Positions 50,653-54,787 of a stretch of 64,000 nucleotides of DNA are shown piece by piece (the stretch's first letter is position 1; every line of letters begins with the position of its first letter). A program made the translations under genes and the position numbers. Source of the DNA: Exiguobacterium sp. (lineage in GTDB: Bacteria; Bacillota; Bacilli; Exiguobacteriales; Exiguobacteriaceae); assembly GCF_020832205.1 (NCBI RefSeq), contig NZ_JAFIFD010000003.1:1-64000 (forward strand), given 5' to 3'. The notes under the pieces were generated by a model. It saw nothing but the letters and a program-made list of their open reading frames with translations. It ran no database searches and was not told where the DNA came from.

Positions 50653-50681
50653 GTGCAAAATGCGTACAGTTTTTGTATACT
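50653..50681 (+). promoter_or_regulatory. speE promoter
   Basis: GTGCAA (50653-50658), 17-base spacer, TATACT (50676-50681). The start point would be near 50688. Confidence 0.5.
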
Positions 50682-50759
50682 TCCTATCGTATGAATAAGA
50701 AGCGCCTCAAAACGCCACTCGCATACGAACAACTTTTTGAACAGAAAGGGGTTCTATCG

Positions 50760-51599
50760 ATGGACCAAAAATTAAAATTATGGTTTACGGAGCACCAGAC
50801 AGAAGATTACGGGATCACGTTCCGTGTAAACCACGTTTATGAGAGCGAACAAACGGAGTTTCAACGACTAGAGATGGTCGAAACGGACGAGTTCGGAACA
50901 ATGTTGTTGCTTGACGGTATGGTCATGACGACGGATAAGGACGAATTCGTCTATCACGAGATGGTGGCACATGTGCCGCTCTTCACGCACCCGAATCCGA
51001 AGCACGTGCTCGTTGTCGGCGGCGGAGACGGCGGCGTCATCCGTGAGATCATGAAACACCCTTCAGTCGAAAAAGCGGTTCTCGTCGACATCGACGGGAA
51101 AGTCATTGAATATTCGAAGAAATACTTACCAAATATTGCGGGCGAGCTCGACAACCCGCGCGTCGAAGTCATTGTCGGTGACGGCTTCATGCACATCGCC
51201 GAGTCAGAGAACAAGTATGACGTCATCATGGTCGACTCGACAGAACCGGTCGGTCCAGCTGCCAACTTGTTCACGAAAGGTTTCTATGCAGGCATCTCGA
51301 AAGCGCTCAAAGAGGATGGCATCTTCGTCGCGCAGACGGATAACCCGTGGTTCACCCCAGAACTCATCCAAACGGTACAACGGGATGTGAAGGAAATCTT
51401 CCCAATCACGAAGCTGTACACGGCGAACGTGCCGACGTACCCGAGCGGTATGTGGACGTTCACGATCGGTTCGAAGCAGTATGACCCGGAAGAAGTATCA
51501 GCAGAGCGTTTCCACGACATCGAGACGAAGTACTACACGCCGAAGCTTCACAAGGCGGCATTCGTCCTTCCGAAATTTGTGGAGGATTTGACAAAATGA
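50760..51599 (+). CDS. speE: Spermidine synthase
   Basis: Aminopropyltransferase using decarboxylated SAM and putrescine. 279 residues from ATG 50760, nine bases after [39 protein letters not shown] binds the cofactor; [13 protein letters not shown] carries the catalytic Asp. An in-frame ATG at 50691 falls at the predicted transcription start and lacks a binding site. Overlaps speB by four bases. Confidence 0.96.
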
Positions 51600-52477
51600 T
51601 CAAACGTTTCGATGAAGCTTATTCAGGCAAAGTGTTCATCGCGAGCCTTCCGGAAGTGACGGACGCGAAGACAGTTCTTTACGGCATGCCGATGGACTGG
51701 ACGGTCAGTTTCCGTCCGGGTTCACGTTTCGGTCCGAACCGGATCCGCGAAGTGTCGATCGGTCTTGAAGAATATAGCCCGTACCTTGACGGTGACTTGT
51801 CGGAAGCAGCCGTCTATGACGCTGGGGACATCCCGCTTCCGTTCGGTAACGCACAAAAATCGCTCGACATGATCGAGTCGTTCGTCAAAGACGTCATCGA
51901 CGCAGGCAAGTTCCCGCTCGGCATGGGCGGGGAACACCTCGTCACATGGCCGGTCATCAAAGCGATGCATGACAAATACGGCGACGATTTCGTCATCTTG
52001 CACCTTGATGCGCACACCGACCTTCGTGACGATTACGAAGGCGAGCCGCTCTCGCACTCGACACCGCTCAAAAAAGCGGCCGAGTTGATCGGGCCTTCGA
52101 ACTGTTACTCGTTCGGAATCCGTTCAGGGATGAAAGAAGAGTTCGACTGGGTGAAAGAAGTCGGCTATAACATGTACAAATACGAAGTGCTCGAACCGCT
52201 CAAGCGTGTGTTGCCGACACTCGCCGGGAAAAAAGTGTACGTCACGATCGATATCGACGTGCTCGACCCATCGGCGGCACCGGGAACAGGCACGCAAGAG
52301 ATCGGCGGCATCACGACGAAAGAATTGCTTGAGTCCGTTCATGCGATCGCTGGCGCCGACCTCGACATCATCGGGGCCGACCTCGTGGAAGTGTCACCAG
52401 CATACGATCAGTCAGACATGACGGCAATCGCGGCTGCGAAGATTCTTCGCGAAATGATGATCGGGTTCGTGAAGTAA
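51596..52477 (+). CDS. speB: Agmatinase
   Basis: Hydrolyses agmatine to putrescine and urea. 293 residues; di-manganese ligands in [19 protein letters not shown] and [17 protein letters not shown]. Directly supplies putrescine to SpeE, with which it is translationally coupled. Confidence 0.96.
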
Positions 52478-52479
52478 CG

Positions 52480-52848
52480 ATGCCGAAAAAAGGTCAGCTC
52501 GAGATGGAACTGAGCGCTCGGATCACCCAATGGGAGAAAGAGTATCTCGGCCGGGGTTCGTTGACGTGCAAGGCAGACCTGCTCCGCGACTTGGCCATCG
52601 TGACGCTCCAAGGCGTCTTGACCCCGGCCGAGTATGATCTCGCCATGAAATCGGCGGGTCGTGAGCAATTGAAAAAGTATCGCAACAACCTCGTCGAGTC
52701 GGGCCGGACGCAACTCGAGGCGATCGTTCAAGACGTGCTCGGCAGACGCATCACGTCGCTCCACACGGACATCAGCACGAAGACGGGCGAACGCCTTATC
52801 GTGTTTCGGCTCGATGCCGCGTGGGATAGCGGGATTGACAAGCCGTGA
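52480..52848 (+). CDS. DUF2294 (MpsC-like) protein
   Basis: 122 residues, start two bases after the speB stop. GQLEMELSARITQWEKEYLGRG...VTLQGVLTPAEYDLA...LHTDISTKTGERLIVFRL is the DUF2294 pattern, named MpsC after a Staphylococcus Na+/membrane-potential locus. Soluble. Its 3' end holds the promoter for the sbtA-type gene, so it links the polyamine operon with a bicarbonate transporter. Mechanism unknown. Confidence 0.8.
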   Translation: MPKKGQLEMELSARITQWEKEYLGRGSLTCKADLLRDLAIVTLQGVLTPAEYDLAMKSAGREQLKKYRNNLVESGRTQLEAIVQDVLGRRITSLHTDISTKTGERLIVFRLDAAWDSGIDKP

Positions 52849-52863
52849 CGTCATTTATACACT
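52835..52863 (+). promoter_or_regulatory. Promoter of the sbtA-type gene, inside the end of DUF2294
   Basis: Perfect -35 TTGACA (52835-52840), 17-base spacer, TACACT (52858-52863). Start point near 52870. Confidence 0.7.
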
Positions 52864-52869
52864 AGAAAA

Positions 52870-53030
52870 CAGATACGTGTCAGGATTGGCGAAGCGAGCT
52901 TCGGAACGCTTCGTCGCCGTCTTGACCCGGAGCTGGACTCATATACCCCGACAGTTGTCGGCTAGACGGAGCGAACGTGTTCGAGCCGTCGGCATGCAGC
53001 GCACACCTTTCTTTAGGTGTGCGCTTTTTG
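52870..53030 (+). ncRNA. Structured 5' leader of the sbtA-type gene, candidate cis-regulatory RNA
   Basis: About 160 bases before the gene. Stem-loop A: GTCAGGA / TCTTGAC (52879-52926) enclosing GGCG-AGCG / CGCT-CGCC. Stem-loop B: CCGAC / GTCGG (52948-52961). Stem-loop C: GACGG..CGAA / TTCG..CCGTC (52965-52990). Intrinsic terminator: GCGCACACCT / AGGTGTGCGC then TTTTT (52999-53029). A second GTCGG at 52988-52992 can compete for CCGAC. No known riboswitch consensus fits. It may instead be a plain 3' UTR and terminator of speE-speB-DUF2294. Confidence 0.5.
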
Positions 53031-53048
53031 TCGCCTAGGAGGAGAAAG

Positions 53049-53999
53049 ATGGAACTATTAACGTTTTTATTGACGAGCGCCCCGGTGCTCATGTTTATGA
53101 CGGGTGTCGTGGCCGCCCTTGGGAAATCGAACTTGAAAATCCCGGAATCGCTCGGCATCACGCTCAACTTGTACTTACTGCTGGCGATCGGACTGAAAGG
53201 CGGGATGGGGCTCGCGTCGGTCTCGTTTGACGACTTGGCGCTCCCGCTCACGGTGACGCTCATCCTCGGCATGGTGTTGCCGCTCGTCGCGTTTTATCTC
53301 GGCGGACTGTTCCGCTTCGGTTTTCATGAACGGATCGCCATGGCGGCGACGTTCGGCTCGGTCTCGCTCGTGACTTACGTCGCGGCCGCGGCCCAGCTCG
53401 AACGGCTCGGCATCGGGTATGAACCGTTCATGACGACGCTCGTCGTCGTCCTTGAGATTCCGGGGCTTGTCGTCGCTTTGTTGCTTTACAATCAAACCCA
53501 CGTGTTCGGCATCACGGCCGCCCCGAGCCAGTCGTTCACCGTCATTCGGGACAGCTTGCTTTCGAAAAGCATCCTGCTCCTCATCGCCGGGCTCATCGTC
53601 GGGCTCGTCACACCGGACACATCGGCGCTGACGCCGTTCTTCGTCGACTTGTTCCCAGGGGTGTTGCTCTTGTTTTTACTGAGCCTCGGCGTGAAAGTCG
53701 GTCAGCAACTGAAGACGGTCCCGTCCTATGGGATGAAATTTTTAGCGATCGGCATGACGTTCCCGCTAATCGGGGCGGCAATCGGTTACGCCGCAGCCTC
53801 GGTCGCCGGGCTGTCCGATGGAGGGACAATCCTGCTCATGACACTTGCGGCGAGCGGGTCGTATATCGCCGCACCGGCCATGCTCCAAGCATCGGTGCCG
53901 GAAGCCGAGCCGTCGTTTTATTTGACGCTCGCCCTCGCAGTCACGTTCCCGTTCAACTTGCTCGTCGGAATCCCGCTCTTCATCACGATCGTCACATGA
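53049..53999 (+). CDS. SbtA-type Na+-dependent bicarbonate transporter (DUF897)
   Basis: 316 residues from ATG 53049 after TAGGAGGAG. About ten membrane segments; ATFGSVSLVTYVAAAAQLERLG (about residue 105) and the C-terminal ASGSYIAAPAMLQASVPEAEPSFYLTLALAVTFPFNLLVGIPLF are the characteristic repeated SbtA elements. Bicarbonate uptake is family knowledge from cyanobacteria. No SbtB partner is seen next to it; the DUF2294 gene lies upstream. Confidence 0.87.
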   Translation: MELLTFLLTSAPVLMFMTGVVAALGKSNLKIPESLGITLNLYLLLAIGLKGGMGLASVSFDDLALPLTVTLILGMVLPLVAFYLGGLFRFGFHERIAMAATFGSVSLVTYVAAAAQLERLGIGYEPFMTTLVVVLEIPGLVVALLLYNQTHVFGITAAPSQSFTVIRDSLLSKSILLLIAGLIVGLVTPDTSALTPFFVDLFPGVLLLFLLSLGVKVGQQLKTVPSYGMKFLAIGMTFPLIGAAIGYAAASVAGLSDGGTILLMTLAASGSYIAAPAMLQASVPEAEPSFYLTLALAVTFPFNLLVGIPLFITIVT

Positions 54000-54000
54000 C

Positions 54001-54036
54001 AAAACGCCGTCTCGGCTCCCGAGACGGCGTTTTTTT
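54001..54036. terminator. Bidirectional terminator between sbtA-type and FGSW-repeat genes
   Basis: Perfect 15-base stem AAAACGCCGTCTCGG / CCGAGACGGCGTTTT, then TTT. Confidence 0.9.
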
Positions 54037-54787
54037 AGTGTGTCACATGTTGTTCTTCAAGGCATTTCAACGCAGCCGTCCAACTGCCGAACAGCGCGTT
54101 GATTGTCGACGTGCTCGGCACGTTGCGGCCTTCTGCCCATTTTCGGTAATGAAGGATGCTGAAATGATTCAGCTCTTGTTTCGCGAGCCGGAGCGCCGTG
54201 ATGACGTCTTCTTCGTCCCATTTCCGCTTCGGCGGGGCGATGTCTAACACGAACAAGGCGTAACTCCATGACCCGTATTTCCGGGCGATCGTCGCCACGG
54301 TCGGATAGCCTTTCTCCTGGGCCCAGACGGCGTAATGTTGGGACGTGAGCCGCTCGAGCTCGGCCGACGCCTCGATGAGCGCTTGAATGATACGTTCCTC
54401 GTTGTTTTTGGTTGCAGTCGTTTGGAGCTTCGCTTCACGGAGCGCATTCGACCAAGAACCGAATCGGCTACTAATTAACGTAAGGGAGGGGGAACGGGTT
54501 ACTTTCGACCACTGGCGGTAGGTTTGGCTCGTAAAGAGCGGTAATTCTTCCGCGGCTTTGTTCAGCGCACGTAAGATATCTTCATCTGAATAATAATGGA
54601 ACGACATTTGAATTTGAGCCGCTACGAGCGCCTCACGCCAAGATCCGAACTGGTGAATGACAGTTGACAAGGAAGGTACGTTTTTATGTTGCGACCATAA
54701 GTTATACCGCTTTGAGTCTAGCTCGGTATATTCTTGGGCCGCGAGCTGCAGAGATTGCACGATTTGTGAACGTGTCCATTTTTTCAT
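54035..54787 (-). CDS. FGSW-repeat protein with four HNH-associated-type repeats
   Basis: 250 residues consisting of four tandem units of about 55 residues, starting near residues 5, 67, 131 and 191. Each has the pattern [E/Q]-[D/I]-[I/V]-x2-[A/S]-L-x2-A-x2-E-L...Y-x2-W...P-[S/T]-x2-T-[I/V]...[F/Y]-G-S-W-x2-A-L. This resembles the homing-endonuclease-associated repeat, a small helical DNA-binding unit, but no nuclease domain is present. SD AAAGGAGAG. Paralogue of the gene at 59142. Composition is GC-rich in the 3' half (54035-54400) and AT-rich in the 5' half. Confidence 0.75.
   Translation of the reverse strand: MKKWTRSQIVQSLQLAAQEYTELDSKRYNLWSQHKNVPSLSTVIHQFGSWREALVAAQIQMSFHYYSDEDILRALNKAAEELPLFTSQTYRQWSKVTRSPSLTLISSRFGSWSNALREAKLQTTATKNNEERIIQALIEASAELERLTSQHYAVWAQEKGYPTVATIARKYGSWSYALFVLDIAPPKRKWDEEDVITALRLAKQELNHFSILHYRKWAEGRNVPSTSTINALFGSWTAALKCLEEQHVTH

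Follow-up and report, generated by a model that had tools for sequence, protein, structure and literature searches.

The window, the whole 64,000-nt stretch of Exiguobacterium DNA analysed here, carries a gene of the Na+-dependent bicarbonate transporter family, sbtA, behind speE, speB and mpsC. A leader with the hairpins P1, P2 and P3 and a terminator lies between mpsC and sbtA. The features are as follows, by window position.

50673-51599, speE, preceding mpsC in the gene order
51596-52477, arginase-family gene, the speB of speE-speB-mpsC
52480-52848, forward strand, mpsC (DUF2294; PF10057, E=1.1e-34), candidate gene of an RNA-binding regulator
52835-52840, forward strand, −35 hexamer TTGACA, invariant in 18/18 leaders
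52858-52863, forward strand, −10 hexamer TACACT, TANANT in 18/18
52870-52935, forward strand, P1, long hairpin with a conserved base (CAG-A(G/T)A-CG / CG-GAG-CTG) and a variable distal part with compensatory changes
52948-52961, forward strand, P2, hairpin CCGACAGTTGTCGG, almost invariant
52954-52958, forward strand, GTTGT, proposed 5′ strand of an antiterminator extension, pairing with GCAGC at 52996-53000 and excluding P2, on a weak thermodynamic basis
52965-52990, forward strand, P3, GACGG-AG-CGAAC..GTTCG-AG-CCGTC, proposed antiterminator core
52996-53000, forward strand, GCAGC, proposed 3′ strand of the antiterminator extension, overlapping the terminator foot
52998-53029, forward strand, intrinsic terminator, 11-bp stem and T tract, kept in 18/18
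53037-53042, forward strand, Shine-Dalgarno sequence AGGAGG, invariant
53049-53999, forward strand, sbtA (PF05982, E=1.4e-86), with its ATG at 53049

The SbtA protein matches the Synechocystis SbtA structure 7cye in sequence (E=3.5e-28), and near-identical loci are found in E. alkaliphilum, E. aurantiacum, E. chiriqhucha and others. Directly after sbtA and its own terminator (54001-54033), an HNH_repeat protein of the homing-endonuclease-associated kind is encoded on the reverse strand (54035-54787).

It is confirmed that sbtA is directly preceded by a structured leader that has a promoter of its own and a terminator. The whole arrangement is present in all 18 sbtA-bearing Exiguobacterium genomes, in a single copy each and always directly 5′ of sbtA, and is absent from 20 genomes of the same taxonomic family without sbtA (one from the genus itself, 19 from its sister genus). 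The terminator element is 14–16 nt from the sbtA ATG in all 18, and ends about 8 nt 5′ of the Shine-Dalgarno sequence. The leader folds at −77.7 kcal/mol (z = −4.84), and none of 200 shuffles is equally stable. Conservation is what places the leader beyond chance; its fold is also above chance, but the promoter match alone is not. The preliminary description had drawn a leader with three stem-loops and a strong intrinsic terminator right before the ribosome binding site, and both stand in 18/18.

The promoter had been proposed as near-consensus and lying inside the preceding gene. Its sequence TTGACA-17-TACACT holds, and both hexamers and the 17-nt spacing are kept at all 18 orthologous Exiguobacterium loci, but only the −35 is inside mpsC, within its final codons, the −10 being just 3′ of the mpsC end (52848). 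The match alone is at chance level, with one found versus 1.2 expected in shuffles. In one Exiguobacterium clade the mpsC stop codon falls within TTGACA, so coding constraint does not account for its conservation; the hexamer itself is what is kept. The transcription start predicted at about 52869–52871 coincides with the base that opens the conserved structure (CAGA(G/U)ACG, 52870). No −10-like sequence was seen between the terminator and the sbtA ATG, so sbtA transcripts must read through the terminator.

The covariance search of homologous leaders, suggested earlier as a check, finds compensatory changes, chiefly in P1. In the alignment of the 18 leaders, 97.2% of cells are paired and 11 pairs have double changes, 10 of them in the variable P1, one in P3 and none in P2 and the terminator. 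P2, P3 and the terminator are nearly invariant, and the T tract of the terminator is short (TTTT) in one clade. The earlier statement that the leader belongs to no known class agrees with Rfam, none of whose 4227 families matches it at the gathering threshold; the Na+-I (DUF1646) model is unmatched up to E=10.

Several other candidates were rejected. A kink-turn at the P1 base would require a helix upstream of the predicted start, where it is unconserved in the alignment judged by eye. A leader peptide has no apparent shared open frame, and the P1 length varies by non-multiples of three. Features of TRAP, HutP and T-box leaders were not seen by eye. Weak matches of the leader model R1 outside the genus were partial alignments for the best five, and many others covered nothing but the terminator portion of R1. 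The P2 palindrome, scanned against viral contigs, gave 62 stretches, which are taken as chance since it is so short.

The preliminary description further proposed a competing CCGAC/GTCGG pairing, in an arrangement typical of transcription-attenuation riboswitches. The layout is consistent with transcription attenuation, but that specific switch is unsupported. Its strands are complementary as letters, yet they pair in no minimum-energy fold of the growing transcript and show no covariation. In L013 this pairing is broken, with the P3 extension retained.

In the growing-transcript folds, P2 appears first. Once CAGC of the terminator foot is made, 15 of the 18 sequences shift, at least for part of elongation, to a form with P3 extended by pairing between GTTGT of P2 and (G/A)CAGC. 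With the right arm of the terminator present, the terminator wins and P2 re-forms in most sequences; before it, the alternative forms are about 2 kcal/mol apart or less in nearly all. This P3 extension is formable in 18/18 with 99.6% of cells paired. As its strands hardly vary and random linkers yield similar pairing in 4–18% of trials, P3 extended over the terminator foot is taken as a hypothesis for the Exiguobacterium antiterminator.

The search for sbtA in Bacilli genomes found mpsC as its upstream neighbour in most other genera too. The same mpsC-leader-sbtA order recurs there, and the gap carries a different, well-defined leader. Its element reads GG-KAG-stem-AA-inner hairpin-AG-stem-AAA-CC. 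From the 5′ end, GG and a 3×3 loop lead into an 8-bp stem (AYCUUYAA / UUGAARGU), which a small AA/AG loop separates from an inner hairpin that varies; AAA and CC follow, and then a strong terminator. The purine-rich internal loops and flanks are conserved. The closing CC of the hairpin is also the start of the terminator stem, which makes hairpin and terminator rivals for shared bases, the principle of RAT-type antitermination.

Alignment A3 of 15 such leaders has 10 of 14 pairs changed on both sides, and none of 500 shuffles reaches its covariation score. The model R2, built from these 15 and run against 399 Bacilli genomes, gave 47 matches at E<1e-3, spread over 41 genomes; its E-values are roughly calibrated and the genomes are samples, not full scans. 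The genes concerned nearly always follow the element immediately: somewhat under half of the matches are before sbtA, and most others before dabB-dabA, the second bicarbonate/CO2 uptake system (by Pfam and tblastn), or DUF6671 genes. In alignment A6 of 43 distinct copies, 94.8% of cells are paired, 11 of 14 pairs have double changes and no shuffle attains the score. A terminator using the closing CC was found by script in 41 of the 43, about 38 of which were accepted as clean by eye. The exceptions are mostly first copies in tandem pairs, plus L115.

Outside the class Bacilli, two further genomes of the phylum sample match. Both have mpsC directly 5′ of the element, which in one is followed by dabB-dabA. 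Neither the Rfam scan of the wider-family loci nor the literature searched (sbtA riboswitches, DUF2294 with bicarbonate, and leader RNA or antiterminators for CO2 in Bacillus) returned anything relevant, and the hairpin-plus-terminator element of Bacilli is apparently undescribed. Its distribution suggests that inorganic-carbon uptake may be switched at the RNA level in these Bacilli.

Some loci depart from the common layout. Tandem hairpin copies stand before a single terminator and dabB at L206:7977-8108, L207:2934-3066 and L235. The sbtA leader of L115 has the hairpin without a clean terminator and may act on translation. In a distant genome (L234:3009-3063), the element is 3′ of mpsC and followed by an apparent MFS transporter gene instead of sbtA or dabB. 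DUF6671 genes occur in the same carbon-uptake neighbourhoods (L209:2999-3052, L121:3069-3118, L115, L216), two with their own element copy, the second judged by reading frame; DUF6671 is possibly a new part of inorganic-carbon metabolism. Proteins of about 175 aa (KKVLFIIGMEEPLEQWL...EEIFVIGA) are encoded near dab operons (L208, L216, L213, L220, L222) and look like β-carbonic anhydrases by eye, with no Pfam match.

The Exiguobacterium leader has the position of the family, directly before sbtA with mpsC adjacent. There are hints of descent: its P2 (CCGACAGTTGTCGG) looks like the family terminator reduced to its two feet (CCGACA..TGTCGG), and in several Exiguobacterium species AAA or AA stands before P2, a feature shared with the family. 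A hairpin base overlapping the left arm of the terminator is possible in 18/18 at energies near parity, and random linkers often match it. Against the Exiguobacterium leaders, R2 gave no match and the best from R3 was 8.7 bits (E 7.9, filters off); a third-best model alignment of no useful score joins the P1 start to the P2 point. As the family model fails to recognise the Exiguobacterium leader, common descent is only plausible. Place, neighbours and logic are held in common, so to speak of relation in function is reasonable, with descent uncertain.

The genes licT, glcT and hutP are typically small conserved genes placed ahead of the leaders under their control. The gene mpsC is nearly always beside the element, which either directly follows mpsC (the sbtA type and many dab loci) or heads an operon ending in mpsC. 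In the loci collected here, mpsC adjoins dabBA or sbtA in many genera. It is present in 41 of the 41 motif genomes versus 225 of the 399 overall (Fisher 1e-11, uncorrected for relatedness). Many of these 225 genomes, including those with likely Staphylococcus dab loci, have mpsC without a recognised motif nearby, so MpsC cannot act on this motif alone.

In S. aureus, the mpsA transcript falls at 5% CO2, and the mpsC deletion has no growth phenotype, mpsC being dispensable for transport (PMC6689103). These findings are compatible with MpsC having a regulatory role. From the place of the element beside mpsC, the association across motif genomes, the layout like that of licT, glcT and hutP, and the S. 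aureus data, we infer that MpsC is the leading candidate for an RNA-binding regulator, a protein sensor being at least as likely as a small molecule.

Comparison of MpsC with solved structures by sequence gave nothing. Its predicted structure (pLDDT 83) has no convincing RNA-binding match in the fold searches, where the top Foldseek rows were ribosomal-protein chains (E 0.06, TM 0.3) and the best VIA-align 2 score (Z 6.2) was to unrelated folds. In L132, an apparent mpsC remnant with an internal deletion lies upstream of the element before sbtA, and the genome has other mpsC copies. In L153, mpsC is directly followed by an apparent Trk/Ktr-type ion transporter gene.

Taken as read from the sequences, the leader and its conservation, the family hairpin, the terminator overlap and the gene associations are best explained, on balance, by transcription attenuation. 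The region between mpsC and sbtA is somewhat probably an attenuation leader of sbtA, and the form taken in Exiguobacterium by a wider antitermination system for inorganic-carbon uptake in Bacilli, with MpsC as the likeliest RNA-binding factor. Transcription would begin at about 52870 and the RNA would fold as P1-P2-P3. By default, the terminator at 52998-53029 would form and halt transcription before the ribosome site, making OFF the presumed ground state. The sbtA gene would be expressed only if the antiterminator form, probably P3 extended over the terminator foot by the putative pairing, is stabilised. In the wider system, the GG/CC-closed hairpin would compete with the terminator requiring the same CC. 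MpsC would most likely be the factor that binds the RNA, in response to bicarbonate or CO2 status.

The main rival is direct binding, by the RNA, of a ligand such as bicarbonate, Na+ or a nucleotide second messenger, which would set the balance of antiterminator and terminator. The conserved purine-rich loops and flanks, the occurrence of tandem copies (L206, L207, L235) and a gene set of two unrelated carbon-uptake systems, which points to one signal, all speak for such a direct riboswitch, whose architecture would be comparable to the expression platform of the Na+ riboswitch (PMC9337991). However, with its variable terminal loop and only a few unpaired bases that never change, the simple hairpin of the family is more reminiscent of a protein site; the ion and c-di-AMP classes of Rfam are unmatched; and the constant company of mpsC would be left unexplained. 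We regard direct ligand binding as rather unlikely.

Two further accounts carry less weight. The terminator might only end the speE-speB-mpsC transcripts, the leader structure having no part in sensing, and feed sbtA by constant leakage, which the short TTTT tract of one clade would permit; a terminator follows mpsC in other Bacilli also. That is improbable, as the conserved promoter is upstream of the terminator and no promoter fits in the interval from terminator to sbtA, P1 covaries in Exiguobacterium, and the strongly covarying family hairpin also heads dabBA operons with no preceding mpsC to terminate. Least credible is an independent trans-acting small RNA of about 160 nt that stands before sbtA by accident; its own promoter, terminator and strong fold would suit one, but in 18 species it is always 14–16 nt from the sbtA start, never elsewhere, and absent without sbtA.

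Among known systems, the RAT hairpin of the LicT, SacY and GlcT antiterminators overlaps the terminator foot, and the regulator gene is often directly upstream of the controlled gene. The family element is like RAT in its purine-rich internal loops, GG/CC closure and overlap with the terminator foot. It differs in loop sequence and spacing, with an 8-bp stem between the loops, and the neighbour here is MpsC, of a different family without known RNA-binding role; no BglG/LicT-type gene was seen among the identified neighbours, the window included. HutP-type leader attenuation shares the order of small regulator gene, leader and controlled gene, whereas its RNA and protein families differ.

The Na+-I riboswitch (DUF1646 motif) also is a terminator-based leader RNA before Na+-linked transporter genes, in which the terminator displaces the aptamer helix P2 as it forms (PMC9337991). 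That arrangement is not seen here, and at E<10 Rfam matched neither the Exiguobacterium leader nor the family loci searched. The Staphylococcus mpsAB/dabAB operons resemble the present case in that the mpsA transcript is lower at high CO2 and mpsC is nearby, but PMC6689103 describes no RNA mechanism and R2 has no match in the likely Staphylococcus genomes sampled. No mechanism for the CO2 response of mpsA is reported in the literature searched.

The fullest reading, which we hold tentatively at somewhat short of even chances, is that MpsC may be an RNA-binding antiterminator that senses bicarbonate or CO2 status and acts on sbtA, dabBA and DUF6671 genes across Bacilli by way of the hairpin-terminator element, or else the element may be the first bicarbonate-responsive riboswitch, and that the Exiguobacterium leader would be a remodelled descendant. 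The wider family supplies a biological frame for the Exiguobacterium leader beyond the window alone, and the element offers a possible function for the orphan protein MpsC. An RNA element common to two unrelated uptake systems gives a direct and testable handle on how heterotrophic bacteria perceive inorganic carbon and adjust its uptake.
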